From a virus, in the IMG/VR virus record IMGVR_UViG_3300035181_001425, positions 1 through 41,121 of that record: a stretch of 41,121 nt of DNA, one strand, 5' to 3'. Positions within the stretch are counted from its first letter, which is position 1. The number at the start of each line of letters is the position of its first letter. The position numbers and the translations under genes were made by a program. Under the pieces are notes generated by a model, which saw nothing but the letters and a program-made list of their open reading frames with translations, made no database searches and was not told the DNA's origin. This document shows, one piece after another, positions 1,883 through 19,753 of this stretch.

Positions 1883-3892
1883 TTAAACGTAGAGCGGAAT
1901 CGTCCCGACGATGTTGCCGGTCTGGTCTACGAGCGATAGCTGCTTGGTGACGCTTCCAGCAGGCGCCCCGGCTGCCACCTTATTCGATGACAAGTAGCCC
2001 CCGATCATGGTGAGACGCTCCAGCGTCGCTCCGGCGGCCTTGCTCTCGTAGGTGATGGTCGGATTCAAGATAGTGTTCATGATGCTGCGGATGGTGCTTG
2101 TATCTCCCGCATAGATTCCGATTGCGCTGTTGTTGATGTAGCAGCACTCAACCGTGAGGTCTGAGGTCCCCACCGTTGCCACCGCGTAGGGGGAAAGTGC
2201 TGCATCAATGCGGAAATTGCTGGCATAGCCACGGAGCGAGCCCGTTGCCCACTGGAGGGCGTTCCCCGCGCATTTTTTAATAGAACCACCCTTGATCGAA
2301 ACATCATCACCCTCAACCAGAAAGCCTTGGGCCGTGGCTCCGTTGATGCTGATGTTGCTGAATTCGATCCCCTTGGTTTTGCCCACGGCGATGGTGCGTA
2401 CATAGATGGCGGGGCCATTCCCATAGCCCCCAGCGGTATCCGCCACCATCACCACATTCGAAACCAAGGTGTCCAGCAGGTTCCCCGTCTTCCCGGCCAC
2501 CAGGCACCCGATGCAGATGCCACCAGTGACCGCGGCGTTCCAGTCCTTGACCGTGAGCCCATTGATGTAGTTCCCACCACAATCGGTGTCCAGGATATTA
2601 GTGATGGCCCCGCCAGAACTGCATCCGTCAGAGATACACCCAACGATTCCGCAGTTGTTCGATTCCTCGATCACGAATGCTGTGTCGGTGCAGTTCTTGG
2701 CGATGCAGTTGGAGATCAGGTTGTCAGTTCCGCTTGTGTAAATGCCGTCGCTGTTGTTAGACGGCAAGTCCCCGCAGTTGATCAACCTGCCAAGATTGAT
2801 TTGGCACCGGATGCAGTTCCCGCCGAACCCCAAACCTGTGGCAGAGATTCCACCGTAGCCGCGTGTGTTCTTCGCAGTGCAGTTCTCCATTGTGGAATCA
2901 ATGCAGTCGATGAAGGTGGCTCCACAGAACCGAATGGTCTGGCCCGAAGTACGACCGGCTTTATTGGCATCGAAAATCAAGGATTCAACCATGACGTTCG
3001 TTCTTCCTGTGGCCAACAACATGTATTCGAAGTTGGTCCCATTCATGGCTTTGATGGTCGGCTTTCCGATCCCCTTGAGTGTGATGTCGTCCCTTGTGGC
3101 GGTGAGCTGAGAGCCAATGTTGTAGGCGCCATAGGGGAAGATCACGCACCCGCCAGCGGGGCAGTTGGCCAGGGCCAGCTGGATCCCAGGGGCATCATCG
3201 TTTCCGTCTGCCTTTGCTCCCCAATCCTTGACCGAAATAATGTCGGTATTTTTATCGGTCTGATTTCTGGGAACCGCACCTACGAATGGCTGACGGGCGC
3301 TCCAGAGGGTGCCGCCAGCTGCCCATCCCCAGGCGGCCATCGTTTCGCTTGCGATGGTGCCGGGCGTGGTGCTCAGGTTGTAGGTTCCATTCCCGCCTGT
3401 ACCTGTGCCAAGAGAAGCGATCGTAGTGCCATCGGGGATCCCGACACCAACGATGGACATCCCTACGGCAAGCACGCCCGCAGTGGCCGTCACGGTCAAG
3501 ACGTTGGTGGCCACGGATGCGGTGACGGAAAACGGTCCCGTCGCAGGGTCTACCGAATTTCCGTTGATCAACGAATACCAGATGGTGCCCTGGCTGGAGG
3601 TGACCGCCATGCCCGCCGAATAGCCTCCAATCGCTGCAGCCAAGGAAGAGCTGAAGGGATACTGGCCGCCCGCATTCTGCCAGGCCGTGTGCTGGGTGAT
3701 CCAGTTCAGGATGCCATTGAAATCGGGGCCCGCCGGAGGAATTCCGCCTGACGAAATAGGCTGCATCGTGATCGCCGGGAAGCCATCCGCGAGTGAGGCC
3801 AGAGGGGATGAGGAGGCCACGGGGATTGTGTTCTTCAGTCCCGTAGCATTCGCGAAGGGCGCTGGCATGAAAGTGGGGAAAGTGAGGCTCAC
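1883..3892 (-). CDS. Tail spike/fibre with a parallel beta-helix (pectate-lyase-like) domain
   Basis: Distal tail adhesin, probably binding or cutting a surface polysaccharide. Residues 1-115 form an attachment domain shared with the next fibre gene (LADGFPAITMQP, then NGILNWIT). Residues 121-185 are one copy of the Gly/Thr-rich module found in other virion proteins here (VGMSIVGVGIP, GTGTGGNGTY). From about 218 the motif VKDWGAKADGNDD followed by CVIFPYGAYNI marks the start of a pectate_lyase_3 type right-handed beta-helix, and the rest is rich in short repeated beta-coil turns with many Cys and Asn residues. It is the last gene of the late operon, the usual place for host-specificity genes. 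No catalytic residues can be assigned, so depolymerase activity is unproven. Confidence 0.85.
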   Translation of the reverse strand: MSLTFPTFMPAPFANATGLKNTIPVASSSPLASLADGFPAITMQPISSGGIPPAGPDFNGILNWITQHTAWQNAGGQYPFSSSLAAAIGGYSAGMAVTSSQGTIWYSLINGNSVDPATGPFSVTASVATNVLTVTATAGVLAVGMSIVGVGIPDGTTIASLGTGTGGNGTYNLSTTPGTIASETMAAWGWAAGGTLWSARQPFVGAVPRNQTDKNTDIISVKDWGAKADGNDDAPGIQLALANCPAGGCVIFPYGAYNIGSQLTATRDDITLKGIGKPTIKAMNGTNFEYMLLATGRTNVMVESLIFDANKAGRTSGQTIRFCGATFIDCIDSTMENCTAKNTRGYGGISATGLGFGGNCIRCQINLGRLINCGDLPSNNSDGIYTSGTDNLISNCIAKNCTDTAFVIEESNNCGIVGCISDGCSSGGAITNILDTDCGGNYINGLTVKDWNAAVTGGICIGCLVAGKTGNLLDTLVSNVVMVADTAGGYGNGPAIYVRTIAVGKTKGIEFSNISINGATAQGFLVEGDDVSIKGGSIKKCAGNALQWATGSLRGYASNFRIDAALSPYAVATVGTSDLTVECCYINNSAIGIYAGDTSTIRSIMNTILNPTITYESKAAGATLERLTMIGGYLSSNKVAAGAPAGSVTKQLSLVDQTGNIVGTIPLYV
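3338..3532 (-). repeat. Gly/Thr-rich insertion module in the tail spike
   Basis: Residues 121-185 of the spike. The paralogous fibre at 3902 lacks it: there NTVDP runs on almost directly to NWAPWAG, whereas here NSVDP is separated from WGWAAGG by the module. This shows a clean insertion. Confidence 0.7.
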
Positions 3893-3901
3893 ATTGGCTC
3901 C

Positions 3902-5035
3902 CTAGATTTCGATGATGGAAAACGTCACGCCGGTGACGAATGCAGAACCTGATCCGCCGCTGTTGGAAAGGGAAAGATCCAACCAGTAGGCAGTGCCCAC
4001 GGCCAGGCCGGGGATGATCACTCCAAAACCGAAAGGGACCTGGGCATTGGCTACGGTGGAGAGTGCTGGGTACTGTGCCAGGCCACCGGAAACAACTGTT
4101 CCGGTGAGAGCTGCTGAAGCGGCAGGAGCCGCGCCAGTTCCGTAGCGCAGCTGGGCCACCACGGTCTGGTTCGCGTTACTGTTCTGCATCATGCCGCTGA
4201 CATGCACGTAGAGCCTGCCGCTCTTTGTTGGCGTGACGGCAATGGTCGAGCCCATGCCTGCCATCAAACCTGTGGTACTGACCACGGCTGCAGGAGAGAG
4301 GGCCGTCGTATTTGAGAATACAGCGCCAGCGGTCTGGGAAGTCACAGGGACTACCAGCCACCACTTGCTGCTCCCCGAATCGTAGGCCGCCCCATAGATT
4401 CCGCCCGCGGTCAGGTCGTTTGCGATGAGAGCGCCGCCCTTGCTATTAACCAGCGGAAGGGCGCCACCACCATTCAGATTGACCGTGACACCCGGAATAG
4501 TGTTCGTGACGGCAGGCTTGAAGAACACCGTCAGGCCGTTGTAGACGGACACCCCGGCAATCGTGAGGGCGATGGCATTCACCGCACCGATGTCCACCAG
4601 GTACCAGGAGTTTCCCTTCACGGAAGACACCATCGAGGCCCCGGCCCATGGCGCCCAGTTCGTCAGCGCCACGTTGGGATCCACGGTGTTCCCGTCCACC
4701 AGGTTGACCACAGAACCTAGTCCGCTGTTGAGCTGCACCACCGCGCCTGCCTTGTAGCCGGGGGATGTGGCGAAGGTGGAGCTGAAGGGGAACTGGCCGC
4801 CGCCATTCGACCAAACCATGAAGGTCGTGATCCAGTTCAGAATGCCGTTCATGTCCGCGCCCTTGGGGGCGAGTCCACCGGCGCTCACCGGCTGCATGGT
4901 GATGGCGGGAAAACCATCGGCCAAGGACGCCGACGGAGAGGACGCCGCGGCGGGGATGGCATTCATCAGCCCGCGAGTGCCGCTGGCTACGCTGCACCAG
5001 GGCGTGGTGATCAGGGGCGGGGCAGTCATCGTCAT
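3902..5035 (-). CDS. Tail fibre with shared N-terminal attachment domain
   Basis: A 377-residue fibre protein. Residues 15-125 match the start of the spike protein downstream (LADGFPAITMQPVSAGG, NGILNWIT, GGQFPFSS), so both probably dock to the same baseplate site. Residues about 130-240 look like a fibre shaft domain. The last 105 residues (SGRLYVHVSG, QLRYGTGAAP, ending in FSIIEI) form a tip domain that also occurs alone in the lysis cassette at 24910-25377. A 33-nt stretch at 4121-4153 is identical to 25117-25149. The gene ends 9 bases before the spike starts. Receptor-binding is inferred from position and architecture. Confidence 0.8.
   Translation of the reverse strand: MTMTAPPLITTPWCSVASGTRGLMNAIPAAASSPSASLADGFPAITMQPVSAGGLAPKGADMNGILNWITTFMVWSNGGGQFPFSSTFATSPGYKAGAVVQLNSGLGSVVNLVDGNTVDPNVALTNWAPWAGASMVSSVKGNSWYLVDIGAVNAIALTIAGVSVYNGLTVFFKPAVTNTIPGVTVNLNGGGALPLVNSKGGALIANDLTAGGIYGAAYDSGSSKWWLVVPVTSQTAGAVFSNTTALSPAAVVSTTGLMAGMGSTIAVTPTKSGRLYVHVSGMMQNSNANQTVVAQLRYGTGAAPAASAALTGTVVSGGLAQYPALSTVANAQVPFGFGVIIPGLAVGTAYWLDLSLSNSGGSGSAFVTGVTFSIIEI
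4121..4153. repeat. 33-nt identical patch, fibre copy
   Basis: Identical over 33 bases to 25117-25149, 21 kb away, in the same orientation. It encodes the RYGTGAAP part of the shared tip domain. Neighbouring bases diverge. Confidence 0.85.
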
Positions 5036-5044
5036 GTCTTGCTC

Positions 5045-6646
5045 CTACGTGGTGATGGCCATGAAACTGTTGTTGTTGAGCGTTCCCGACCCAAACGGCT
5101 GCAGGCCCGTGTTGGAGAACCCGAAGAGCGTCGTGAGGTCCGTGAGGTTGGCGAGATACATCTGCACCCCTGCCGGATGGGCGATCACCTTGGCCTGGGT
5201 GACCACAGCGATGTCTACGGGGGTGATCGTGAATTCGCAGACGATGAAGGCCGTCATGTTGCCGGAGTCGATCACGTAGGCGCGCCCACGACCCGCGAAG
5301 AGCAGCTGCAGCATTACGTTCATCGCAAAGGCCGAGCACCCGCTGATGTTCGCCAGGGCCTTCGCCAGCAGCATCTGCAAGAAGGCTGGGTCCGGCTGGG
5401 CGAAGTTATTCCCGGTGATAGTTCCACCCAAGAAGGGGGCATCGTTCCATGGCAACCAGCTGTTCGCTTCGATGAACCCGAAATAGGGCTGCAGGGAGGT
5501 ATTTGGCATGTTCAGATTTCGATTCACACCCAGAATCCGTCCCCACACATCCAGGCCATAGCCTTGTGCTGTGTAGATGTTCCAGACCGATGAGTACCAG
5601 GCATTGAAGGGCGAACCCGTCATCAGGCCCGTCATGGTGCCCGTGGGGATCGGCGCGGCGAAGGTCTGATTCAGGAAGTAGGCAGTGACTGGGGACAACA
5701 CGTAATCCGTGACCGTGACCGCCGCGGCATCCGCGAGGATAAAGCTCGTCGCTACGGCCCCGGCATTCTGCTCGATCTGGAAATCCGTGATCGTGATGTC
5801 CGCCGTGCTACCCGTGGAGAATGTCCCACGAAGGCCGAAAATCATGTTCCCGGAAGCACTTCCAGCGGTTCCCATCGGCACCGCGAACCGTTGAAGAGTT
5901 GTGGTCAGGCTCACCGTGGCATTGGCAGAAGAGATCGTGCTTCCACCAACGTAGAGCGTCTGGGCTGATGTATTCGACTTGGCCCAGAAAGACACCACCA
6001 CAGGCTGCCCAACGGTGAGGCCAGAGAGCGCTGGTGTCCTTCTCAGGCTATAGTTCCCGACCGTCGTCCCCCCGCCCTGGTCGAACTGGATCCGTTCCGC
6101 GGTCATGAAGCCTTCTGGCCCCAATCCATAGTTCGCGGTGACCACCGGGTTAGTCCCCGTCCCCGCAATGAGATTTGCCCAGGCAGCATCATCCAGCTTC
6201 TGGCTCTTGCTGCAAAAGTTGGTTCTGGCGGTTGCGTAGAGCAGCTGTGTGCCCTGCCAGTCGGTCTTGGTGATCCCGCCCCCGGTGTAGAGGAAGGTCC
6301 CGGTGACGCCGTCTCCCACCGAAGGGAGAACCCCCGCCAGGGCCACGCCTGCCGCGGGGATCGAACTGAACACAGCGTTGGATGAAACGGCCGAGTTCGG
6401 CGCGGTGATGATGGTTCCGAATGCCGGAATCCCCTGGCCGTTGATCTGCTGGCCAACCACCAGGCTCCCGGATGACACGGAAGACACCGCGAGGATGTTG
6501 CCCGTGATGGATCCAGAGAAGGTGGCCCCAGTGCTGGTGACAGGAATCAGGGACGGATCGACGGCCGTGTTCCACGAATTCAGCAGGGCCTGCAGCACAG
6601 GGCTGTTGGCGTACTGACTGATGATCGTGGATGGCAGATTGATCAT
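5045..6646 (-). CDS. Baseplate protein, DUF2612 family, with inserted module and carbohydrate-binding-like domain
   Basis: DUF2612 proteins occupy the tail-protein-I position next to baseplate J in contractile tails. Residues 1-35 and about 316-533 form the family domain ([14 protein letters not shown] is the hallmark; the end carries the long alpha/beta tail with HPAGVQMY). Between them is an insertion of about 280 residues. Residues 41-100 are a degenerate copy of the Gly/Thr module ([11 protein letters not shown]). Residues about 137-300 look like a jelly-roll carbohydrate-binding domain of the type seen in phage structural proteins: [18 protein letters not shown], then [19 protein letters not shown] and ITDFQIEQN. 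The stop overlaps no downstream start but the start overlaps the upstream stop as ATGA. Sugar binding is inferred. Confidence 0.85.
6347..6526 (-). repeat. Degenerate Gly/Thr-rich module in the DUF2612 protein
   Basis: Residues 41-100: [29 protein letters not shown], but the GTGTGGxGTY part is lost. This is the weakest of the seven copies. Confidence 0.5.
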
Positions 6647-8103
6647 GCGAGCACCAGCGACACGCCCGCGCTATAGAACACGGGGAACTGGTTGATCTGC
6701 TGGAGCTGGCTTTGGGCGGTCGGAGTCGGAGCCGTTCCCACCTGCACGTTCATGATGATGGCGCCTGGGAGGATCTTTTGAATCGTCTGGTAGAACCGGC
6801 TCCCGAAGACTGTCCCTCCGATTGCAGCCGGCGCGCCGCCATCGGTCCCAGAGAAGGCCATGCCCAGACCGGTCGTCGGGTTCTGCAGCAGGGTCAGAGC
6901 GTTCGATACCGGGTTGGAGGCAGCGGCCAGCGTGACCGTGATGTAGATGGGGACCTGCTGCGGGATCGTGTACTGCACGTTGTAGCTGGGGTAGGGGATC
7001 GCATAGCTCGTATCCTGGACCACCACCGTCCAGGAGGAAGTCATCGTCTCGGTTCCTGCCAGGGGAATCGTTCCCACGGAAGAGGACAAGGTGTAGGTGC
7101 CTGCCCCTCCTGTGCCGGTGCCCAGGCCAGTGATGATGAGGCCTGCGGGGACGTTGGTCCCGTAGACCGTCTGGCCCACAGCCAACACGCCACTGGAGGG
7201 CGCGCCCGTGACCGTGAGCACGCTGCCTGCAATGGAGCCCGTGAAGATCGCGCTGGGCGTGTAGTTGCAGCCGATGTCCTTCTTGCTGCAGATGGCGCGG
7301 GCAATGGAAGCGGGATCGCCGCCCTGCACCGCCACGTAGCAGCTGTTCGGAATGAGCGTGAAGGGCATGCCGTTGGTGATGGAAGTGGAGGCTAGGTTTG
7401 TGCCGTTCTCCGTGGCATAAACGGAAAGCGGGATGTTCGGGGGCGTGAGGGTCGCGCCGGAGGCCAGGACGGCGGCCTTGATAGAGGGAAGCGAGCCGAT
7501 GGCGTTCACGGCCACGGACTGCTGACGCCGAGCCTCAAACTGCTGCTGGTTCTCCACCAGTGCCCCGTAGGACGCGAAGGCCGCCCCGGTGATGCTGTCC
7601 CAGCCTGGGGTGGTCTGGTAGATCGTGAGTGGCCCTGTGAACGCGATGGCGCCTGCCACCTGATTCGAGAAGGTCAGGAGGAGGGACCCCCCAGCCGGAA
7701 TCGTTCCTCCTGCGCAGGTGTAGAGGTTGCCTGCGGCATCCTTCGCCACTGGGACCCCGCCAGGAATCACTGTGCCGGCCAAACCGATGCAGCTCCCCGT
7801 GACCAGGGTGGACGTGGCCGGTTTCCGGGTCATGAAGTAGATGTTCCCGATCGCATCCTGCATGCGGCCCTGGGCGTACTGCGGGTCGATCTGGCTGATG
7901 ACCTGGAGGAACTGGGAGTTGCAGTCGCTGATGATGGCCGCCAGGCTGCTGGCAAGCTGCCCCTGGGGCGTGCTGAGACCGGGGTTGAGCCCACCACCGA
8001 AGGCCGCATTCATGTCAGCCTGCACACCCGCCAGCAGGGCCGCGTCTGAAGGCGCGGTGAAGCCTGCGGTGCCAAGCGTGGGGAATGGGACGTTGGTGGC
8101 CAT
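6643..8103 (-). CDS. Baseplate J-like protein
   Basis: Wedge protein of the contractile-tail baseplate (family of P2 gpJ and Mu gp47). The amino end has the typical [26 protein letters not shown] and [23 protein letters not shown] helices. The stretch [28 protein letters not shown] is the conserved hinge, and the end carries the beta-rich PIYITVTLA and [17 protein letters not shown] segments. Residues 286-355 are an inserted Gly/Thr module ([26 protein letters not shown]) placed in the loop before WTVVVQD. The gene overlaps the DUF2612 gene by ATGA and follows the gp25-like wedge gene, the standard baseplate order. Confidence 0.9.
7039..7248 (-). repeat. Gly/Thr-rich insertion module in baseplate J
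   Basis: Residues 286-355: [15 protein letters not shown], then [17 protein letters not shown] and [16 protein letters not shown] near-canonical copy. Confidence 0.7.
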
Positions 8104-8112
8104 CGAATGCTC

Positions 8113-8460
8113 CTAGAAGGTGACGCCCAGCGCCTGGCCGGTGATGTCGATGACGTTGACGACGCCCGATACCTTCCGGTTTTGGAAGCCGGTGATCTTG
8201 GCCTGGGCCTTCACCACTTCCGGCACCGTGAGCGCAGCCTGGATCAGCAGCGCCTGAACCAGGGACGGGGCGTAGGCCTGCCCCAGCACTTCGGAGTAGT
8301 AGGGGATCCCAAGCGTCGTGTCGAAATAGGTCTCGCCCGCGAAGGTGGAAATGGCGCTGGCCACATCCTGGGCAATGGCGCTGGGGCCCGAGAGCATGGC
8401 CATGTTGCCGTTGGCATCGAGCCCAAGATCCCATGCGGCTGAAAGCTGGAGCGTGTTCAT
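8113..8460 (-). CDS. Baseplate wedge protein, gp25/GpW-like
   Basis: A 115-residue protein of the T4 gp25 / Mu gp46 / P2 gpW family, which links the inner baseplate wedge to the sheath. The features seen are SGPSAIAQDVASAISTFAGE, the conserved YFDTTLGIPYYSEVLG, and a beta-rich end. Length fits the family (100-135). It sits between the spike gene and baseplate J, the normal order, and overlaps the spike gene by ATGA. Confidence 0.88.
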   Translation of the reverse strand: MNTLQLSAAWDLGLDANGNMAMLSGPSAIAQDVASAISTFAGETYFDTTLGIPYYSEVLGQAYAPSLVQALLIQAALTVPEVVKAQAKITGFQNRKVSGVVNVIDITGQALGVTF

Positions 8461-9146
8461 ACCGGAACCCCCGTTTGCGCGATGCCCGTGGACACCCCGC
8501 CATGCTTATGGGTGTGCAGACTGGTGCCGTTGCCGGTGACGTCGCCACTGAAGGTGCCCGTGCTATCGCCCGTGAAAGCGCCGGTGACATGCCCTGTGCC
8601 GTTCACGGTCAGGTTCCCGTTCAGCGTGATGCCGCTGCCATCGATCACCACGGAGGTCGAGCCGAAGACGGCCTGGATATGGCTGTCATTCACCTGCAGG
8701 TAGTTCACGGGCGTGGTGCTGAGGTTCCAGCCGCCGAAGTAAAGCCCGTCCGCCATGTCAAACCGGCGCGCCGATCCGGGGTTGCCCTGGGCTCCGGAGG
8801 CCTGCACAGAGGAAATGTCCCGGTCGGCGAAGACACAGAAGCCGATGTCGTCCACCTTGGGATCCACGATCACGGCATTGGCGCCGCCCTGGATCCGGAG
8901 ATAGGGCAACCCGAAGATGGTGGTGTGGGGCACCGCGGAGCCGTCACCGGCCACCTGATTGACAAGAGGGAGAACATCCACCGTGCCCACAGGAGACACG
9001 CCCCCGCTTGTGCTCACGGCCACCACTTTCACAAGGGTGGCCACGTTGAGGCGGGAGAGCATCATCTGCACCACGAAGGCCAGCTCGTTGAACGGACTGT
9101 TCCCGCTGTTCAGTTCCTGCTGTCCGAAGACGCCCTGATCCGCCAT
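8457..9146 (-). CDS. Baseplate spike (Gp138/gpV-like) with HxH tip
   Basis: Central puncturing device at the tail tip. The first 110 residues form an OB-fold domain of the Gp138 N-terminal type (NELAFVVQMMLSRL, then ALV-like KVVAVS and a polarity-rich VDVLPLVNQV). Residues about 150-210 are a short repetitive beta-helix (ITLNGNLTVNGTGHVTGAFT). The tip ends LHTHKHGG followed by TGVPV; His211, His213 and His215 supply the HxH iron-binding apex known in this family. Position between hub and gp25 agrees. Confidence 0.88.
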   Translation of the reverse strand: MADQGVFGQQELNSGNSPFNELAFVVQMMLSRLNVATLVKVVAVSTSGGVSPVGTVDVLPLVNQVAGDGSAVPHTTIFGLPYLRIQGGANAVIVDPKVDDIGFCVFADRDISSVQASGAQGNPGSARRFDMADGLYFGGWNLSTTPVNYLQVNDSHIQAVFGSTSVVIDGSGITLNGNLTVNGTGHVTGAFTGDSTGTFSGDVTGNGTSLHTHKHGGVSTGIAQTGVPV

Positions 9147-9147
9147 A

Positions 9148-10020: not shown

Positions 10021-10024
10021 GGGG

Positions 10025-10333
10025 TCACTTTTGGTAGATCGAGATGGTGCAGTTCTGGCCGCCCAGCGTGATATCGAACTGCTGGGCGGGGATGGCCTGG
10101 AGGGGGATCTGAACCGTGTCCTGGCCGTCCTGGTAGTAGAGGAGTATGTAGCGACCGGTCTTCAGGTCGAGTCCCGGATAGAGCGGATCTGCGCTCCCCT
10201 GCATGTCCGCAAAGGCGAGCGTTCCGATGAAGCCCAGATAGGGGAACGAACCGATCTGAACGCGGTTCAGACAGGGCACCCCTTGCCAGAGGGGCGTGCC
10301 GTTGATTGCCAGATCGCAGTAGAGGTTGGGCAT
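10025..10333 (-). CDS. Baseplate plug protein, apparently circularly permuted
   Basis: A 102-residue protein with both halves of the phage baseplate plug family (Pam3 gp18-like, DUF6983-like), but in reversed order. From memory of the family, the usual order is IPLxAIPxQ-LGGQNCxIxxYQK first, then LYxDLxxNGxPL, YLGFxGDLAFxDxQG and GRYxLxYL. Here the protein starts at PNLYCDLAINGTPL, runs to GRYILLYY at about residue 67, crosses a linker QDGQDTVQ, and ends with IPLQAIPAQQ and GGQNCTISIYQK. The start is fixed by a TGATG overlap with the upstream gene. Position between the Dit-like and hub genes supports the plug role. Confidence 0.8.
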   Translation of the reverse strand: MPNLYCDLAINGTPLWQGVPCLNRVQIGSFPYLGFIGTLAFADMQGSADPLYPGLDLKTGRYILLYYQDGQDTVQIPLQAIPAQQFDITLGGQNCTISIYQK

Positions 10334-12440: not shown

Positions 12441-12580
12441 TACTTCTCCGAGCCCTTTTTGTAGGCCAAGGCCTCGTTGTGGTTGTCCACGAGAATGATT
12501 TCAAGCATGTCGTAGGCATCCTCAAGGCCGTAGATGGTTTGGAGTTCGTGAAGCGTTGCCAGTTGCCTGGAGACGATCAC
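12440..12580 (-). CDS. Second tail assembly chaperone ORF (GT-like, -1 frame)
   Basis: This frame continues past the stop of the first chaperone and ends one base into the tape measure start. Read alone it would start at GTG 12580 in a GTGA overlap and give 46 residues (VIVSRQLATLHELQTIYGLE, then AYDMLEIILVDNHNEAL). GTGA overlaps are used elsewhere in this genome. The same frame is also open far upstream, so it could be reached by a -1 frameshift, as in lambda G/GT; the best slip candidate is GGT TTT TC at 12672-12665, which would give a 203-residue fusion. The two routes cannot be separated from sequence. Confidence 0.7.
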   Translation of the reverse strand: MIVSRQLATLHELQTIYGLEDAYDMLEIILVDNHNEALAYKKGSEK

Positions 12581-13050
12581 TCCGATCCGGGGCGGGACAT
12601 TGACGTAATTGGTGAAGCCAGCGGTGCCGCCTGAGCCATGGATTCCGAGAGCTTGGCGGCGAGCGAAAAACCGAGGTGCAGTTCCAGCAGCTCCTTGCGG
12701 AGCTTGATGCGTGTGGTGACTTCTTCCGTGTCGTTCTCGCCGAGGGCGCGGAAGAAGTTCGGGTTCTTCACGGGATCGGGCTGAATCTGGATGCAGCGGA
12801 ACATCTCATCCAGCAGGGGCTCGGCCAGTGCCCAGTCCAGGCCTGAGAGCGCGGACAGACCTGCGGCCGCAACTCCGGCCAGGCCCTGCTGAGCGGCTCC
12901 GTCCGGAAGATCCACGCCCGACTTGGCCAGGGCCAGGAAGGCGCGGGCAGCCCATTTTTCCGCTTGAGTGGCGCCCATCTCGGTCAGGAGGAAGGATTTT
13001 CCCTTGTCCCGATTCTCCGCATCGATGGTGACAATCTTCGTTTTGCGCAT
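12577..13050 (-). CDS. Tail assembly chaperone (gpG-like)
   Basis: A 157-residue protein between the tube gene and the tape measure gene, where phages with long tails encode the chaperone that coats the tape measure during assembly. It shows TQAEKWAARAFLALAKSG, a mostly helical body, and LLDEMFRCIQIQPDP, features common to annotated phage tail assembly chaperones of this type. The end of its frame overlaps a second -1 frame, the hallmark of G/GT pairs. It is not expected in mature virions. Confidence 0.8.
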   Translation of the reverse strand: MRKTKIVTIDAENRDKGKSFLLTEMGATQAEKWAARAFLALAKSGVDLPDGAAQQGLAGVAAAGLSALSGLDWALAEPLLDEMFRCIQIQPDPVKNPNFFRALGENDTEEVTTRIKLRKELLELHLGFSLAAKLSESMAQAAPLASPITSMSRPGSE

Positions 13051-13053
13051 GGG

Positions 13054-13491
13054 TTACATCCCGCTGATGACGACGCTTTCCCACGTGATTTCGTAGGTCT
13101 GCGGTTCGAGGGTTTTCTTGGCGGCCGGGATGTCGGAGTACATCGTCAGCGCCCCGTTGTTGAGCGTGGCCTGGATGCCGTTCGACTGGATGACGATGGT
13201 CCCGCTGCAGGGGAGAGCATCCTGGGCGGTATCCATGGCCTGGGCCCAGTTGTCGAACACGATGCCGGAAGGCGAGTCAGCCGCGAGCTTGATCTTCATC
13301 TTGCGGGCGACCTTCACGTAGCCCTGGCTCAGATGGCCATCCAGGCCCATCTTGGCTTCCACCTTGGGGAAGGAGTCCATGTCGAACATGTCATCGGTGC
13401 TGAACCCCTGGATGACCACGGGCTGGTTGTAGACCCCGGGAATGACCAGGGCCAGGACGGCAGTGATGGAGGTGATCGTCGAAAGTGCCAT
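13054..13491 (-). CDS. Tail tube protein
   Basis: A 145-residue protein directly downstream of the sheath gene, matching the tail tube of DUF3383-sheath myoviruses (DUF3277-like). The visible features are VVIQGFSTDDMFDMDSF, a GHLSQGYVKVARKMKIKLAADSPS hairpin region, FDNWAQAMD, and the beta-rich end YEITWESVVISGM. It should stack in hexameric rings inside the sheath. Size fits the family. Confidence 0.85.
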   Translation of the reverse strand: MALSTITSITAVLALVIPGVYNQPVVIQGFSTDDMFDMDSFPKVEAKMGLDGHLSQGYVKVARKMKIKLAADSPSGIVFDNWAQAMDTAQDALPCSGTIVIQSNGIQATLNNGALTMYSDIPAAKKTLEPQTYEITWESVVISGM

Positions 13492-13503
13492 GTCAGGCTC
13501 CTG

Positions 13504-15219
13504 CTACTGAATCGAGATGGAGGCGAGGTTCAGCTGATTGACGGAGCCACCGTCCATCCACCAGAGGGTGCAAGGCGGGCTCAAACGGTTGTTGCGCTGG
13601 TTCGCGCTGGCCGGGAGCACCTGCAGGTAGTAGCCGTTGTTCGCCAAGGCGGGATCGATGGTCAGGCCCGCGGCGCTGTTCACGTTGGCGATCTGCAGGG
13701 CGGTGAGCACCACGCCGGTGTTGATCACCCCCGCATTGAGCGCAGCCGTGATCGGCCCCAGGGCGGCGGCCTTGATCATGCTATAGCCCTGCGGATTGTA
13801 AGGAATGGCGTTGAGGTTGGTGAACATGTTCACGAGGGCCAACTGCAGGGAGCTGTTGAGCCAGATCGCATTCACGTAGGAATCCAGCCAGCCGAAGGCG
13901 CCGGAAAGCTGCCCGTTCCAGAAGAACTGGTTCGAGGCGTTGGCTGTGGCCCAGTTCCCATAGAAGTTCGTGCCGTTGGCGATGGCATTGGCCGAGGAGA
14001 CCGGATCGTTCACCGTGGGGGTGATGCCGGTTCCGCTCTTGTAGGCGATGGCCGCGCGGCCGTTCTTGGCGTTGAAGTTGATGGATGCCACGAAGCCGAG
14101 CACGAAGGCCGCGGCGTTGGGATCCTGGTAGACCGCGCAGGTGCCGCCCAGGCTGTTCAGCTTCGTGTAGTAGCTGATGCAGGTAGTGCTGGCATTGCTG
14201 GACACGATCGTGGGGTCCGAGTCGTAGGGAACATAGACAAACTGCCCACCCGTGCCCGCGTTCCAGGTGGCGAAGGCCTGCTTATCGGCGATGACCGGTT
14301 CGAAGCAGGTGGAGAAGGTCGCCCAGTTGCTCGTGAAGACCGCCAGGGCCGTCATGAAGGTGCCGGGGACGTTGGCGGCGCTGCCCTGCGACAGGGTGCC
14401 CACGCCAAGGCCCAGGGTGGTCGCGTTGGTGCCGCCGCAGACCGTGATGGTGGAACCGGCGCCGGTGGTGCCAGAGGTGATCACGAAGGCGTTGAAGGCG
14501 CTGGACCAGGTCACGGTGGATCCAGCTGTGCCGCCACTGAAGGCGAAGGCCGTCTGGATCAGCGAAGCCGCATTGCTGAAGCTGGACGCCGAGGAAAGGT
14601 TCAGGGCCGCGATGGAGACCAGGGTACCGTTGATGGTGACGGTCAGCGTGCCACTGGTGATCGCCTGCAACTGCGCCAGCGTCAGGGAAGGCATGCTGGT
14701 GCCACGGAAGAAGGCGGGGATGGCGTAGGAGGCATAGCGGCCGAACAGGAGCGCTGTGGGCTTCACGGTGGAGCCCGTGTAGCCGTTGAAGTAGACGGCG
14801 GCCATCTGGCTTTCCAGGCAGTTCGAGGTCATGGCGCTGGCGGTGGCCTGGGTGAATCCGGGGCCGGAGATGGTCACCGTGCCGATGCCCGTGCCAGTGC
14901 TGTAGGTGCCCAAAGCGGTGATGTAGGTCCCGGGAGGGACGCCCACGGCGCCGAGGGACTGAAGCTCCTGGCCCACGGCGATCGTGCCCGACAGGGTCTG
15001 GGTGATCGTCAGGGTATTGGCCACGCAGGTGGCCAGGATCGAGGCGTTGTACTGCCCGAAGTAGGCCTGGACGCTGGCCAGGGTGGGGAAGCTCACGGGC
15101 GCGCCCACGGGCAGCACCGGGTTCTGCGAGAGCAGCAGGCCGTTCAGCGCCAGCGGATTCCCACCAGAAGCCAGGACGGCAGGCACAACGGAGATGATGG
15201 TGGAAATCGGAATCGACAT
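13504..15219 (-). CDS. Contractile tail sheath protein (DUF3383)
   Basis: Sheath subunit that contracts to drive the tube through the envelope. The 571 residues match DUF3383: LNGLLLSQNPVLPVG, VQAYFGQYN near 50-58, AVYFNGYTGS near 141, a tandem-domain centre, and a beta-rich end (DGGSVNQLNLASISIQ) that would form the interlocking handshake. Residues 58-134 are an inserted Gly/Thr module, exactly between YFG and the E-x-x-AAVYF motif that are adjacent in ordinary family members. The presence of this gene makes the phage a myovirus. Confidence 0.9.
   Translation of the reverse strand: MSIPISTIISVVPAVLASGGNPLALNGLLLSQNPVLPVGAPVSFPTLASVQAYFGQYNASILATCVANTLTITQTLSGTIAVGQELQSLGAVGVPPGTYITALGTYSTGTGIGTVTISGPGFTQATASAMTSNCLESQMAAVYFNGYTGSTVKPTALLFGRYASYAIPAFFRGTSMPSLTLAQLQAITSGTLTVTINGTLVSIAALNLSSASSFSNAASLIQTAFAFSGGTAGSTVTWSSAFNAFVITSGTTGAGSTITVCGGTNATTLGLGVGTLSQGSAANVPGTFMTALAVFTSNWATFSTCFEPVIADKQAFATWNAGTGGQFVYVPYDSDPTIVSSNASTTCISYYTKLNSLGGTCAVYQDPNAAAFVLGFVASINFNAKNGRAAIAYKSGTGITPTVNDPVSSANAIANGTNFYGNWATANASNQFFWNGQLSGAFGWLDSYVNAIWLNSSLQLALVNMFTNLNAIPYNPQGYSMIKAAALGPITAALNAGVINTGVVLTALQIANVNSAAGLTIDPALANNGYYLQVLPASANQRNNRLSPPCTLWWMDGGSVNQLNLASISIQ
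14818..15048 (-). repeat. Gly/Thr-rich insertion module in the tail sheath
   Basis: Residues 58-134: ANTLTITQTLSGTIAVGQEL, PPGTYITALGTYSTGTGIGTVTIS. It would project from the sheath surface. This copy is more diverged than those in the cement protein. Confidence 0.6.
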
Positions 15220-15228
15220 GGCTCTTCC

Positions 15229-15744
15229 TTAGTGAAGGGTTTCGACGCTGATGGGGACGATGCTGGCGGCCGCCATGAACTGCTGAGGTGCGACGGTCGA
15301 GGGCTGATACTGCAGATGAAGCTGGACAATCCAGCGCTTCTCGTACTGCTGCTCGCCGTTGACGACGGGCATCTCAATGGGGTCTTCGGCCCAGAGTGGG
15401 GTGACGCCATAAGCCGCCATGAAGTCCACGGCCAGCTGGTGCTGCCACACGGTGGAGAGGACGACTGCCCAATCCGAAGAAGCGGGGCCGTAGCAATCCA
15501 CCTGAACCGTGAAGTCGAAGGCTTGGAGAATTGATTCCTGGGTGATGGGCTGGTAATTCGTGACATTCATGCCCAGCTTCTTCAGCCCCTTCTGGGTCAT
15601 GCAGACGTAGGGACCATTGGGGGGAGGCACACCGTTCCCAAGCTCCCGGACCACAAAGGGGTTGCTGAGGCCCAGGGCATCCTGGATCCAAGCCTTCAGG
15701 CCGATGAAGACCTGATCGACGGCGGGGGAGCTGGTGAAGCTCAT
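15229..15744 (-). CDS. Neck/tail terminator-type protein
   Basis: A 171-residue protein upstream of the sheath gene. Start chosen at ATG 15744, which overlaps the upstream stop as TGATG; a longer frame to 15789 exists but begins inside the upstream gene. It resembles phage neck terminator proteins (LIC_12616-like): VFIGLKAWIQDALGL, GPYVCMTQKG, QSILQAFDFTVQVDCYGP and EKRWIVQLHLQY. Such proteins cap the tail tube and join it to the head. Confidence 0.7.
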   Translation of the reverse strand: MSFTSSPAVDQVFIGLKAWIQDALGLSNPFVVRELGNGVPPPNGPYVCMTQKGLKKLGMNVTNYQPITQESILQAFDFTVQVDCYGPASSDWAVVLSTVWQHQLAVDFMAAYGVTPLWAEDPIEMPVVNGEQQYEKRWIVQLHLQYQPSTVAPQQFMAAASIVPISVETLH

Positions 15745-16109
15745 CACGCCACCTGCTGGGTGAGACCGACCGCAGACCAGTCGGGCCATGTTTCGAAGAC
15801 GTTCACCACCAACCAGATCGTGCCATCTGGGAAGATGAGTCGATCACCACCTTTGCCGGAGGTGCGGATGATCCCGTTCACGGCGCCGTAGCAGTAGGCC
15901 TTGCGCTCTACGCCCTGAATGTTCTGGCCATTGAGGTGCGCGATGTCCTTCCCGCTGAGCGCCTGGACGTCTACCGGCCCAGAGGCAGTGGCGTACGTGG
16001 CGGCCTGGGTTCCATCAGCGGCGGTGGAATAACCGGTGCTGGTTTGGATCGTCGCAACGACCGCAGGAGTGACGGCGCGGGTGCCCGCGGCGAGGCCGTG
16101 GAGATTCAT
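15744..16109 (-). CDS. Head-tail connector / head closure protein
   Basis: A 121-residue protein in the connector cluster. It contains ATIQTSTGYSTAADGTQAATY, VDVQALSGKDIAHLNGQNIQGVERKAY and LIFPDGTIWLVVNVFETWPDW, a pattern seen in connector proteins of DUF3383 myoviruses. By position it would close the head below the adaptor. It overlaps its upstream neighbour by ATGA. The exact ring in the neck is inferred. Confidence 0.65.
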   Translation of the reverse strand: MNLHGLAAGTRAVTPAVVATIQTSTGYSTAADGTQAATYATASGPVDVQALSGKDIAHLNGQNIQGVERKAYCYGAVNGIIRTSGKGGDRLIFPDGTIWLVVNVFETWPDWSAVGLTQQVA

Positions 16110-16624
16110 TTGGAACCCCCAGTCGCGAACCGTTCGCCGTTCACCTCGTAGGCCACAGCGTTGAGCATGACCTTCGTGTCTTGCAGGGTAGCTTGGGCGC
16201 CCCCCTTGAAGCCCTTGCGCTTGATGGTGATGGCCTTGTCAGGCGGCTCGTTGAATTCGATGATCGCCGTCTGCAGATCCTCGGCGATGGTCTGGCCGAG
16301 AGCTTGCATAACCTTGGTCATGTCGCCTTCATAGTGCTTCCAGAGGTTGACGATCCGGTTGCGCCAAGACGGAGACTTCTTGTCGAGCATTCCCTGGAAG
16401 AACGGACGAGCGGGGACACGAGCCTGAGGGCCCATGCCGCGCTTTCCCACAGGGATCCCATGGCCGTACTCGTTCAAGGCGGCCACCTGGGCGACGGACG
16501 TGCCGTCGGGATAGGTGGCACCTTCAAGGAACCCAACCCGAAGAGCCAGGTCCTTCCCAGACTTCGCCATGAGCTGCTTCAGTTTTTCCTGGAAGGCTTC
16601 TCCGCCGGTGACATGAAGTCCCAT
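16106..16624 (-). CDS. HK97 gp10-like head-tail joining/tail completion protein
   Basis: A 172-residue protein. Start chosen at ATG 16624 (TGATG overlap with the DUF4054 gene); an upstream frame to 16726 is out of context. The motif TSVAQVAALNEYGHGIP followed by VPARPFFQGML is the signature of the gp10/tail-completion family, and a GxxxAEDLQTAI helix follows. These proteins lie at the head-tail interface. Confidence 0.75.
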   Translation of the reverse strand: MGLHVTGGEAFQEKLKQLMAKSGKDLALRVGFLEGATYPDGTSVAQVAALNEYGHGIPVGKRGMGPQARVPARPFFQGMLDKKSPSWRNRIVNLWKHYEGDMTKVMQALGQTIAEDLQTAIIEFNEPPDKAITIKRKGFKGGAQATLQDTKVMLNAVAYEVNGERFATGGSK

Positions 16625-17058
16625 CAGAACCGCCTGGGAGGGCGACAGGGCAGGATGTAGCGGGCCCTGCGATAACGACTGGTGAGCGCCCAGAAGTCCG
16701 CGCCGTACTTCGTCTGCTGGAACCACGCGGCATTGGGAGAGGATCCCCCCATGTCCGCATGCACCTTCACAGAGCCCTGGGTGGCATCTGTGATGCGCCC
16801 AACCAAAGGAGCGGAACCCCGCTGGCTGGAGGCATCGTAGAGTTCGGCCAGGTGGGCCGTGAGCATGTGCAGCAGCACGTACTGGGTGTTGAGGTCCTTG
16901 ACCACGGAGTTGCCCGCGTTGTTCAGGTAGAGCCCGGCTTCGATGAAATACGTCGGTGCCGTCGTCCCCGCGATCCCTGCGAACTCGGGATAACGGGCAG
17001 CGAAGAAGGTCGCGTCGAAGGCGACGACAGCAGGCGGAGGATTCACCGGGTAGGGCAT
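16624..17058 (-). CDS. Head-tail adaptor, DUF4054
   Basis: A 144-residue protein with the DUF4054 pattern: FFAARYPEFAGI, an alpha-helical body with LLHMLTAHLAELYDA, then VGRITDATQGSVKVHADM and AAWFQQTKYGADFWAL. It is expected to form the adaptor ring attached to the portal. Its place after the capsid gene and before gp10-like is conserved in this phage type. Confidence 0.85.
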   Translation of the reverse strand: MPYPVNPPPAVVAFDATFFAARYPEFAGIAGTTAPTYFIEAGLYLNNAGNSVVKDLNTQYVLLHMLTAHLAELYDASSQRGSAPLVGRITDATQGSVKVHADMGGSSPNAAWFQQTKYGADFWALTSRYRRARYILPCRPPRRF

Positions 17059-17061
17059 AGG

Positions 17062-17457
17062 CTAGGCCTCGGCTCCGAGCTTCTTTTCGTTCTTCTTCAG
17101 CCAGTCCTCATCGGGCTTCACGCCATTGCCGGGCTTGAGCGGATTGATGGGCTCGAGGCCCGTGAGGTTCAGCTTGTTGTCGTGGGCCTGGGCCTTGGCG
17201 TTGTCGGGCTTCTCGTTCGCGAAGATGTGGCCCTTCTTGAAGGGCTCATACCCAGCGTGAGATTTCGCCCAGGCGTCCCAGTGGGCTTTGTCGATGGTGG
17301 TGGCGCCATGCCCCGCGAAGATCACGTGGTTCGGCTGTTCACCCACTCGGTTGGCAGGTCCATTCACGCGAATGGTGTGATCGACGCCGGCGGAGTCCTT
17401 CACGGTCAGGTGCAGACCGTTCGGGATTTTGCAATACACTACGACGGTTTCGGCCAT
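17062..17457 (-). CDS. Conserved phage protein of the head gene cluster
   Basis: A 131-residue protein between the major capsid and DUF4054 genes. It begins VVVYCKIPNGLHLTVKD and contains VIFAGHGATTIDKAHWDAW, a pattern I have seen in uncharacterised proteins at this position in related myoviruses. The carboxy half is charged and Lys/Asn-rich (KPDEDWLKKNEKKL) and probably flexible. No enzymatic motif or signal peptide is visible. A minor head component is likely from position only. Confidence 0.55.
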   Translation of the reverse strand: MAETVVVYCKIPNGLHLTVKDSAGVDHTIRVNGPANRVGEQPNHVIFAGHGATTIDKAHWDAWAKSHAGYEPFKKGHIFANEKPDNAKAQAHDNKLNLTGLEPINPLKPGNGVKPDEDWLKKNEKKLGAEA

Positions 17458-17459
17458 GG

Positions 17460-18539
17460 CTAAACTCCGAGCATCTGGGCGATGCCGGTCGGCTGCTCGA
17501 GGACAGTGCCCCAGGTGCCGCCCGACTTCTTCTGTTTGAAGGACGACACGTCACGCACGATGGTGTGCGCCCGCATCTTCTCGTTGAATGCGCAGAAGGC
17601 GACCTCCTGGGTATCCAGCTCCTTGGCGATGAGCTGGACCAGGTTGCCCGTGGGGGTGGCGTATTCGATCGCCGTGACCACCCGCAGGTTGGGGAAGTTC
17701 TTCTTGAGCATGTCCGCGACGTTGACGTTGAACTGGGTGGTCTTGGTGAGAGCCACTTCGCTCACGGGCGCGCAGGCCAGCACCATCGGGGTTTCCATGT
17801 TCACGATGCCCGCGGTCTGCTGGACCAGCTGCTGGAAGAGCAGCTCGACGTCAGCGTAGACCTCGTTCGCCGTCGCCAGGGGCCAGGCGTAGTAGTTTAC
17901 GCCGGCGGCCTTCTGGAGGGGCGCGATCGCAGCGGAGAGGCTGGGGTCGTTGAGCAGGCCGTAGTTCTGCAGGCCCTGGAGCCCGTAGAAGTAGGTCTTG
18001 TTCTGGAACTTGTTCATCACCAGGGCGGAGGCGATGTTCTTGCGGGCCGCGATGTCGATCTTGGCCAGGCCAGCCTGGGCCAGCTCGCGCTCACCCCACT
18101 CGGTGATGCTCTGGTAGTAGTAGCTCTGCCGGGTGACGAAGTTCACCTGGGTGTTGGCTTCGCCGTTGTTGCTGTAGTCCCCGTAGCTGGAGACCTCACC
18201 AGTGTTCTCGATGAGGGGGAACTGCCAGGTCATGGTGGTCCAATCGCCCTTCTTCTCCTCCCGGAGGATCTCGGCGGCCTTCATGGGGGCGACCAGCACC
18301 TCGACCTGCTTGGGGTCGATGACGTTGGCCAGGAACCAGGGAATGCCAGCGTTGGAGCTGGTCACGGAGAGCGGCTGGGCGGCGTAGGCGTCCATGCCGA
18401 ACTCGCGGCGGCAGGCGTCCATGGCGAGGGCGTAATTTCCCTTCCACTCCGGCTTCAGGTAGGTGGTGCCACCCCCATCGAAGACGATGCCGAAGTCTCG
18501 CTCAAGGCGCTCGAACTCAGGATTGCGTCGGAATTTCAT
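17460..18539 (-). CDS. Major capsid protein (DUF2184)
   Basis: A 359-residue HK97-fold capsid protein of the DUF2184 family. Seen are the amino arm (RRNPEFERLERDFGIVFD), the E-loop/P-domain region WTTMTWQFPLIENTGEVSSYGDYS, the spine helix QSITEWGERELAQAGLAKIDIAARKNIAS, and an A-domain end with TPTGNLVQLIAKEL and RAHTIVRDVSSFKQKKSGGTWGTVL. No long removable amino delta domain is present; a separate scaffold is encoded upstream. The neighbouring cement and DUF2213 protease genes are the normal partners. Confidence 0.92.
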   Translation of the reverse strand: MKFRRNPEFERLERDFGIVFDGGGTTYLKPEWKGNYALAMDACRREFGMDAYAAQPLSVTSSNAGIPWFLANVIDPKQVEVLVAPMKAAEILREEKKGDWTTMTWQFPLIENTGEVSSYGDYSNNGEANTQVNFVTRQSYYYQSITEWGERELAQAGLAKIDIAARKNIASALVMNKFQNKTYFYGLQGLQNYGLLNDPSLSAAIAPLQKAAGVNYYAWPLATANEVYADVELLFQQLVQQTAGIVNMETPMVLACAPVSEVALTKTTQFNVNVADMLKKNFPNLRVVTAIEYATPTGNLVQLIAKELDTQEVAFCAFNEKMRAHTIVRDVSSFKQKKSGGTWGTVLEQPTGIAQMLGV

Positions 18540-18550
18540 GTCATAGGCTC

Positions 18551-19753
18551 CTAGAACGCCAGGCCGATTTTGACGAGTTCACCCGGGTTGGCCAGGCTCT
18601 GAATGGAGAAGCTGGTCTGGATGAACGGGGAGAAGTTGCAGGCCTGCGTGGTGATCGTGCCGGTGGTCGCCTGCGAGAGGATGATCGTGCCGCTGACGCC
18701 GTTGAAGGTGCCGATGGACGCGACGTAGGTCCCTGCAGGAACATTGGTGATGCCCTGGACCAACATGCCGGGCAGGATCACACCCGCGGTGACGGTGTTG
18801 ATCGTCATCGTGGTGCTGGACGCGCTGGACACGCTGGAGCAAGTGGCACCGCCCGTGGAATCGGCAGGGGTGCCGATGAGGGCCGCGGACGAAGGCAGGC
18901 CGCCCACGACCACCGTGAAGGCGGTCAAGGTGCCAGGGCTCGTGCTGAGGTTGTAGGTGCCCGCGCCGCCGGTGCCCGTGCCAAAGCTGGTGATCGTGGT
19001 GCCCGCAGTGATGCCGGCGCCGGTGATCATCTGGCCGACCTGCAGCGTGCCATTGGCGCTGATCACGGTCATGACGTTGGTGGCGAAGGAGGCCTGCACG
19101 TTGAAGGTGGGCAGAGCCACAGCCAGGTTATAGGTGCCCGTGCCACCCACACCGGTGCCAAGGCTGGCAATGCGGGTGTTCGCGGGGATGTTCGGGCCGG
19201 TGATCAGCATGCCGACGCCGAGGGTTCCGGAGGCGACAGCCGTAACGGTCAGGACGGCGGGGCTGGCATTGCTGATGCTGCCCGTGAAGGAGCAGGCCGA
19301 GCCGGACGGGAAGACCAGGAACTGGCCGGGCAGGCCGGGGGTGATCGAACCGTCGAACAGGTTCGCATAGGCGAACATGCCGGGGTTCACGTTGGCCTGC
19401 TGGTTGCAGCAGCGTGCCCACATGTCCACACGAGCGAAGAGCGTGACCATGTTGCCCGGAGGGATGACCAGGCTGGCCCCACCCAGGAACGGGGTAATCA
19501 GGCCATGCAGCTCGTTGACGATGAGGCCGTCGGGGATCTGGCCCAGGTTGCCCGTGGGCGCGAAGTTCGTGACGATGGTGTTGGTGCTGGGATCGGTCCA
19601 GCCGAAGCGACCAGCGGACACGCCGTTGGTCAGGTCAGCGACGAAGCCGCCCGCACCCGCATCCACCGTGGCGGTGAAGTTCGAAGATGCGCGCATGCCC
19701 TCCACGCCAAGAGGCGGGTACTGCGCGACGGAAGTCTGAAAGATGTTGGGCAT
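18551..19753 (-). CDS. Capsid cement/decoration protein with three tandem Gly/Thr modules
   Basis: The first 150 residues resemble the structural cement proteins encoded just before DUF2184 capsids (VEGMRASSNFTATVDAGAGGFVAD, VSAGRFGW, LHGLITPFLGGASLVIPPGNMVTLFARVD, then FAYANLFDGSI). Such proteins bind the capsid surface and stabilise it. Residues 154-212, 217-283 and 304-372 are three consecutive modules (VGMLITGPNIP, VGQMITGAGITAG, LVQGITNVPAG, with GTGxGGxGTYNL), so the protein is more than twice the usual length. The modules would decorate the outside of the head. Confidence 0.8.
   Translation of the reverse strand: MPNIFQTSVAQYPPLGVEGMRASSNFTATVDAGAGGFVADLTNGVSAGRFGWTDPSTNTIVTNFAPTGNLGQIPDGLIVNELHGLITPFLGGASLVIPPGNMVTLFARVDMWARCCNQQANVNPGMFAYANLFDGSITPGLPGQFLVFPSGSACSFTGSISNASPAVLTVTAVASGTLGVGMLITGPNIPANTRIASLGTGVGGTGTYNLAVALPTFNVQASFATNVMTVISANGTLQVGQMITGAGITAGTTITSFGTGTGGAGTYNLSTSPGTLTAFTVVVGGLPSSAALIGTPADSTGGATCSSVSSASSTTMTINTVTAGVILPGMLVQGITNVPAGTYVASIGTFNGVSGTIILSQATTGTITTQACNFSPFIQTSFSIQSLANPGELVKIGLAF
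18638..19294 (-). repeat. Three tandem Gly/Thr-rich modules in the cement protein
   Basis: Residues 154-372 of the cement protein hold three copies of the module of about 60-68 residues. Copies 1 and 2 are canonical (GTGVGGTGTYNL and [13 protein letters not shown]); copy 3 has a changed GTY part (GTYVASIGTFNGVSGTIILS). Confidence 0.75.

Follow-up and report, generated by a model that had tools for sequence, protein, structure and literature searches.

The immunoglobulin (Ig)-like domains of phages are the textbook case of a promiscuous virion-surface domain. They were reportedly treated as accessory domains by Fraser et al. in 2006, a study known to us through papers that cite it. Here we examine another small module, which occurs in seven copies within five virion genes of a viral DNA of 41,121 bases, the IMG/VR record IMGVR_UViG_3300035181_001425 (G000; hereafter the window, meaning the whole stretch that was analysed). 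A first-pass annotation, made from the letters of this DNA, had located the copies and likened them to the Ig-like domains.

Ig-like accessory domains, like the module, are small beta domains that occur in unrelated virion proteins by insertion or fusion. Three papers name fibres, baseplate wedge, major tail, major head and decoration proteins as their hosts and propose weak carbohydrate binding (PMC13033339, PMC9230969, PMC7602432). The likeness drawn by the first-pass annotation stands, the module having head, sheath, baseplate and spike hosts. There are also clear differences. None of the Ig-type Pfam models reaches its curated cut-off for the module copies, and the top structural matches are a decoration protein and barrel domains rather than Ig sandwiches; moreover, the module has connectors, adaptors and tail terminators among its hosts and is almost free of charge, and carbohydrate binding is putative for it. 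It appears to work in a manner analogous to the Ig-like accessory domains, but because no Ig profile matches we do not file it as one of them.

Three further described systems are close to the locus. Protein gp7 of Arthrobacter phage Bridgette is a separate capsid protein of 126 residues, encoded directly after the major capsid gene, and it is identical to chain 1 of the solved structure 8ECI, labelled 'Decoration protein' in the Protein Data Bank (PDB). The XM1 gp53 / TW1 / E217 gp24 cement family (PF23982, PF22758) is host to the three tandem copies of the window, whose cement protein matches PF23982 at 55 bits against a cut-off of 27, while a relative at viral locus L029 matches both models. 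The module-less XM1 gp53-family members examined lack the domain, and the window insertion lies in the region matching their C-terminal part. Finally, the sheath of XM1 is similar to that of the window in being a contractile-tail protein whose N-terminal domain houses an additional domain; that of XM1 is described as resembling a flagellar-cap domain (PMC10457771).

Seven copies of one domain

The window carries integrase, portal, terminase and contractile-tail genes, the tail genes lying on the minus strand together with all copies of the module. Single copies occur in the tail spike, the DUF2612 protein, the baseplate J-like protein and the tail sheath, and three lie in tandem in the capsid cement protein (Table 1). 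Each spans 66–78 residues, with a consensus that is roughly xxxTASxxxxVLTVTxxxSGxLAVGQxxxGxGxPxGTxIxSLGTGTGGxGTYNLS. In a held-out test, profiles were built without the copy to be tested and were run on the six-frame open reading frames (ORFs) of the window. All seven copies were recovered where the first-pass annotation had placed them (E 2.4e-20 to 1.9e-6), and the three cement copies were still recovered when held out jointly (E 3.6e-15, 3.8e-15 and 2.3e-4). The lowest real score, 16.3 bits for cement copy 3 in the joint test, and the next lowest, 23.7 bits, compare with a top score of 14.1 bits among 3,913 shuffled or reversed sequences. The seven copies are one homologous domain. The copy in the DUF2612 protein is degenerate, as had been noted earlier, its Gly-rich half being lost, and profile search finds no copy in the fibre gene adjoining the spike.

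A biased composition, with 45% Ser, Thr and Gly, might suggest that these segments are merely low-complexity stretches that resemble one another by composition alone. A translated search (tblastn) of the module against named phages also gave no match, but the low-complexity filter was on and the result is uninformative. Against this explanation stand the held-out profiles that outscore the 3,913 shuffles, a predicted local distance difference test (pLDDT) score of 97, the clean empty insertion sites, and the sheath and spike clades described below. We consider it refuted by the shuffles, the fold confidence, the empty sites and the tree, and it is the least probable of the explanations weighed here.

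Table 1. Module copies, their host genes and other features of the window.
Feature	Position	Strand	Basis or remark
Tail spike gene, pectate-lyase-type	1883..3892	-	PHROG tail fibre/spike matches; N-terminus common to fibre gene 3902-5035
Module copy, spike, aa 119-189	3326..3538	-	Held-out profile E 2.4e-20; same site in L007, L019
DUF2612 baseplate protein gene	5045..6646	-	Pfam PF11041 E 2.3e-38, aa 347-496
Extra region of DUF2612 protein, about aa 34-344	5615..6547	-	Degenerate module and second domain matching phrog_4797
Module copy, DUF2612 protein, aa 40-108, degenerate	6323..6529	-	Held-out profile E 1.6e-7
Baseplate J-like wedge gene	6643..8103	-	phrog_6 baseplate wedge E 1.4e-30; solved relatives E217 gp44, Pa193
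Module copy, baseplate J, aa 284-359	7027..7254	-	Held-out profile E 1.8e-15
Tail sheath gene (DUF3383)	13504..15219	-	PF11863 E 6.3e-102; phrog_205 tail sheath; solved E217/Pa193 sheaths
Module copy, sheath, aa 58-135	14815..15048	-	Held-out profile E 1.8e-6
DUF4054 connector, without module	16624-17058		
Major capsid gene, adjoining cement gene	17460-18539		
Capsid cement gene (XM1 gp53 / phrog_2122 minor head protein)	18551..19753	-	PF23982 E 1e-14, aa 5-140; phrog_2122
Module copy 3, cement, aa 301-374	18632..18853	-	Held-out profile E 1.9e-6; 8ECI chain 1 match Z 8.3
Module copy 2, cement, aa 217-286	18896..19105	-	Held-out profile E 5.1e-16
Module copy 1, cement, aa 152-223	19085..19300	-	Held-out profile E 2.3e-16
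NinB/Orf recombination mediator	27977-28762	-	
Erf-like single-strand annealing protein	36723-37517	+	

Insertion sites and age of the copies

Aligned to the solved sheaths of E217 and Pa193, the window sheath matches in two pieces. The first ends at residue 57 of both query and chain, the second begins at query residue 131-132 and chain residue 55-56, and the module has no counterpart residues in these chains; the first piece is weak alone. L026 and L029 have this site empty, as do three named phages, Amjad_SA, 62AhydR11PP and PA-1. Among the named phage records with a related sheath, 0 of 459 cover 80% of the window sheath query, and all 30 of the sheath matches listed begin where the module ends or slightly beyond it, at residue 127-136. 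Related sheaths were found on 18 viral contigs, with the module present in 13 and absent from five (L020-L024); one of the copies, that of L012, is cut by the contig end and is found only by a widened profile (E 3e-4).

The corresponding site of the baseplate J protein is empty in G015, G018 and the same three named phages. Copies that do occupy it in L012, L014, L018 and L047 are highly diverged and are found only by the widened profile, with E 2e-5 for L012 and 8e-5 to 3e-3 for the others. In the baseplate J proteins of L068 and L037 the modules lie at positions other than the window's, which indicates repeated insertion within one family. The baseplate J-like proteins of L037 (3933-5822) and L038 (2588-4477) each carry three modules near the C-terminal end, at sites unlike that of the window, and in L020 (18954-20212) a baseplate J homologue extends over two overlapping frames, possibly owing to a frameshift or a sequencing error.

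Cement proteins that lack the module pass from the motif GAAGAT directly to G.(V/I)ET or a motif very like it, and the site is empty in the same named phages. Copy number among the relatives ranges from 0 to 3, with one copy in L029, two in L009-L011, L019 and L039, and three in the window, L008 and L013-L018. A profile of the module-less cement proteins yielded no significant solved relative. For the spike, the module is absent from the neighbouring fibre and from the aligned spike or fibre N-termini of L014, L018, L047 (G007) and G018.

The clean insertion that the first-pass annotation had described for the sheath and for the spike relative to the fibre holds, and the insertions in the baseplate J and cement proteins are clean as well. 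In the DUF2612 protein the module forms only the first part of an insert of about 310 residues. In L007, L019 and three named phages this protein passes from about residue 33 directly to about residue 345. A second domain following the module matches phrog_4797 (residues 123-227); by eye alone, this part looks like a sugar-binding-type add-on. In L044 a module lies upstream of the DUF2612 domain instead. A DUF4054 connector of L039 has a module where the window homologue has none, and that insertion is clean relative to Amjad_SA, 62AhydR11PP and PA-1.

The cement and DUF2612 sites were read from per-piece matches and from the sequences themselves, MAFFT having misplaced the C-terminal tails of the module-less cement proteins and the N-terminus of the DUF2612 protein. 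Insertion boundaries were compared at the protein level, filled and empty relatives having diverged too far for a comparison of their DNA. The comparison with solved sheaths, named phages and viral relatives confirmed that the sheath, baseplate J and cement insertions are clean, and the copies occupy several distinct insertion sites even inside one protein family.

The copies of the window differ considerably in their DNA, with pairwise identities of 38-62%. At shared residues, codon sharing is no higher than codon usage predicts in 18 of the 21 pairs, and a slight excess is seen in the other three (p 0.002, 0.009 and 0.025). A tree was built from 70 copies and 75 columns, after identical sequences and copies shorter than 55 residues had been dropped, and its bootstrap had not settled. 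In it, the 13 sheath copies make up one side of a branch (97/99) and the three spike copies one side of another (98/82); cement copies fall in several groups, and cement copy 3 of the window clusters with the copies that come last in the cement proteins of L008-L010.

The DNA-level comparison bears directly on whether the window phage has recently undergone a burst of duplication, as a selfish in-frame DNA repeat might cause. The three pairs with excess codon sharing speak for such a burst, but the remaining 18 and the low DNA identities speak against it, as do the separate sheath and spike clades and the affinity of the third cement copy with those of relatives. The codon comparison and the tree disfavour recent duplication, and we consider it very improbable, scarcely less so than the low-complexity explanation. 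From the sheath and spike clades and the codon comparisons it follows that the sheath and spike copies at least are old, and the copies have been maintained separately.

Fold, relatives and spread of the module

AlphaFold2, run on 46 copies, gives a mean pLDDT of 96.9 and six strands, and we are confident, from this prediction, that the module would fold independently as a small all-beta domain rather than forming an ordinary part of each host fold. The first solved match in Foldseek is 8ECI chain 1, with a template-modelling (TM) score of 0.74, probability 1.0 and E 0.02. It ranks first again in a second structure comparison (Z 7.6, root-mean-square deviation 2.3 over 66 residues), and once more when the full cement model is used, where the third module gives the match listed in Table 1. 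The N-terminal part of that model is poor, residues 1-110 having pLDDT <50. Lower solved matches, with Z of 5-7, include F1-ATPase, IF2 and E1 domains and some phage tail proteins, which may share only a common strand arrangement with the module. As to Ig folds, Fab chains appear among the Foldseek matches listed only at a TM score of about 0.2, and the six strands of the model compare with 7-9 in the Ig beta-sandwich, the top solved matches being 8ECI and the F1-ATPase, IF2 and E1 domains.

At the sequence level gp7 is recovered at E 3.7e-4 when the module profile is run on ORFs from the initial 15 kb of Bridgette, whereas the module profiles run against the sequences of all PDB chains gave nothing significant, 8ECI included. 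Bridgette gp7 shares with the module a VG.TI...GIPAGTTIT core, 29-30% identity and a structural similarity of TM 0.74 and Z 7.6-8.3. It differs in lacking the GTGTGGxGTY stretch, in the weakness of the sequence relation and in its separate existence, every window copy lying inside a larger gene with none standing alone as gp7 does. The relation of the module to this solved decoration protein is weak but consistent, and the evidence that its predicted fold is the same is good without being overwhelming.

The first-pass annotation could give the domain no name, and this remains the case as far as family libraries are concerned, although its nearest solved relative has now been found in Bridgette gp7. 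Among the 46 copies no Pfam model reaches its cut-off, the best being MBG_2 with a chance-like match to one member (E 0.019), and no NCBIfam model fits, the best match being unrelated (E 0.01). The profiles of phrog_21413 and phrog_38233 contain the module as one stretch and match 36 and 29 of the 46 copies, respectively; these are long families, unnamed or labelled 'tail fiber', in which the module is neither set apart nor named. A search of open-access literature by titles, abstract openings and passages, with most subscription papers outside its scope, found no paper describing the module.

Since the alignment of the seven copies has no stretch conserved enough for scanning contigs, the scans relied first on one copy and then on a DNA motif encoding GTGTGGxGTY. 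The motif, applied to viral contigs irrespective of host gene, gave at least 120 stretches; 80 loci were taken on, and a profile detects the module in all 80. These loci hold 135 copies in 98 host ORFs, with two or more host ORFs at 18 loci, and 90 of the 96 copies in complete ORFs are internal. The module is not peculiar to the window phage.

Host families were assigned by scans of 96 of the 98 hosts, the giant ORFs of L127 and L150 being left out, with re-scans of 26 and 33 hosts; the PHROG families listed are the first 25 of 71, 39 and 42. In counts that overlap, they comprise head closure Hc3 (13), the SU10 adaptor (8), the phrog_2122 minor head protein (7), XM1 gp53 (5), cement (4), baseplate wedge (4), tail sheath, and Phage_capsid (2; L078 and L122). 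Further hosts are a lambda gpD-like protein (L123), a tail terminator (L147, poorly aligned by MAFFT), the Pam3 plug (L082), a P22-type stabilisation protein, fibres, collars and one GDSL lipase. Among the families listed, those hosts with a functional label are all, to judge by their sequence matches, virion or tail-associated. A protein of phage P19250A has an empty site where the module splits the HK97-type capsid proteins of L078 and L122. Of 398 bacterial genomes, all from one phylum, four contain a match at E 1e-5, and in one of the four it is a baseplate J protein (L068).

Structure matches in BFVD include proteins labelled there as HK97 capsid, P22 gp10, pectate lyase and tail sheath, the last being weak (E 0.24). 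There are also matches to giant-virus proteins, namely the Indivirus collagen-repeat protein A0A1V0SCQ2 (E 1.5e-4) and, weakly, the Sylvanvirus protein A0A3G5AJX2 (E 0.32). At L034 (3216-5630) the module seems, by eye, to interrupt a glycoside hydrolase family 16-type enzyme that has no Pfam match.

In a separate lineage (L075, L089, L098, L102, L104, L110, L134, L135, L139, L140 and L146) a long protein, of head closure Hc3 type in L075, has one or two modules, and a gene close by, some 330 residues in length, has another. The presence of modules in two genes of this lineage indicates that decoration of several proteins recurs elsewhere. The window also encodes an Erf-like single-strand annealing protein and a NinB/Orf recombination mediator (Table 1), and recombination proteins of these kinds could help to spread diverged in-frame modules between genes.

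Probable exposure and possible roles on the virion

We propose that phages have repeatedly and independently placed a small all-beta accessory domain, in frame, within loops of their virion proteins, where it would face outward on the particle. The exposed decoration put forward in the first-pass annotation is supported only indirectly, by the host families, by papers on XM1 and E217 and by the solved 8ECI. Capsid binding by XM1 gp53, which forms trimers at three-fold axes, is mainly attributed to its N-terminal 95 residues (PMC10457771), and the cement modules of the window lie beyond the part matching those residues. A sheath study by Evseev places extra sheath domains away from the tube (PMC9230969); in the description of Pa193, the residue matching the insertion sits in the core part of the sheath (23-90) and not in its flexible domain (PMC11042391). 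Given this position in the core part, exposure of the sheath module is presumed. E217 is described with 180 gp24 trimers, likewise at three-fold axes, and 204 sheath subunits (PMC10329688), and by extrapolation from these numbers a particle would carry about 1,800 modules.

The composition of the module is unusual. Charged residues amount to 5 of 503 (1.0%) in the window copies, compared with 8.0% for the remainder of their host proteins; in the 135 copies of the other viral loci the share is 2.6%, compared with 12.5% for the remainder of those hosts. Ser, Thr and Gly make up 45-51%, and the sole well conserved aromatic residue is one Tyr (33 of 46 copies). Constraint differs between hosts. 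The ratio of non-synonymous to synonymous change (omega) in the sheath is 0.07 and 0.13 for the module against 0.32 elsewhere in the protein, and in further sheath pairs the non-synonymous rate (dN) of the module is lower in 25 of 28. For module and rest, respectively, omega is 0.25 and 0.29 in the cement protein, 0.18 and 0.26 in the spike, and 0.39 and 0.32 in baseplate J. The low value in the sheath implies that the module is maintained there and is not a fast-changing receptor-binding part.

Taken as an exposed accessory module, it would most probably serve weak, multivalent surface contact of low specificity, an interpretation to which we give about an even chance, arguing by analogy. Weak contact with cell surfaces or particles would favour encounter, or retention, until the spike comes into action. 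That head, neck, sheath, baseplate and spike all tolerate the module suggests that its function needs no particular neighbour. There is experimental precedent with Ig-like domains: those of the major capsid protein and tail tube of the mycobacteriophage Douge are reported to bind mycobacterial glycans (PMC13033339), and engineered display of gut-phage Ig-like proteins is described as giving epithelial binding (PMC13370021). The narrower suggestion of the first-pass annotation, that all copies share a host-surface glycan as ligand, is unproven and has so far gained no support, given the near absence of charge and the one conserved Tyr, with which weak binding is still compatible.

Several observations weigh against a role in surface contact. 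Neither the lack of charge nor the single Tyr fits a typical carbohydrate site; the copy in the sheath shows strong conservation instead of diversification, as might be expected of a structural part; and the copy in baseplate J is the least constrained and that in the DUF2612 protein is decaying, so that not every copy is kept. In addition, the cement proteins of Bridgette, the phage of the nearest solved relative, are described as dimers bridging capsomeres, which points to stabilisation (PMC13033339). The module might then be a clamp that contacts its neighbours, capsomer to capsomer or sheath to sheath, and hardens the virion in the manner of a built-in cement. Its tandem multiplication in the cement protein and the purifying selection on the sheath copy would suit such a role. 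The same module occurs, however, in connectors, tail terminators, spikes and fibres, which offer no common partner surface, and baseplate J copies are highly variable, with copies missing or decaying in places. We consider a stabilising role possible but unlikely, with perhaps half the chance of surface contact.

The charge figures given above, together with the high content of Ser, Thr and Gly, would equally suit a passive, neutral coat or spacer, whose surface limits sticking, aggregation and recognition and lifts other domains off the particle. A precedent for dispersal is that T4 particles without Hoc are said to tend to aggregate (PMC7602432). Such a coat would have no need of a fixed sequence, but in the sheath the module is better conserved than the remainder of the protein, and the low charge may merely reflect a tiny, turn-rich beta domain. 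This role is also possible, and in our estimate slightly less likely again than a stabilising clamp; weak multivalent contact is ranked ahead of both.

Beyond the question of its role, the module may be an undescribed and widespread plug-in domain, a non-Ig counterpart of the Ig-like domain that has been installed independently in nearly every exposed class of virion protein, including the major capsid and the neck, and that covers particles with one charge-free surface. We advance this tentatively, as somewhat short of an even chance. In the absence of Pfam and NCBIfam models, proteins carrying the module are probably misannotated or unannotated. Relatives with filled and empty sites permit direct comparison, and the near-zero charge is a simple property that can be tested. 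If the proposal is correct, the coating would be selected as a property of the whole particle and not of a single protein, and the structure matches in Indivirus and Sylvanvirus would extend the domain to giant viruses of eukaryotes. A second promiscuous surface domain, of another kind than the Ig-like domain, would show that coating the whole particle is a general strategy.

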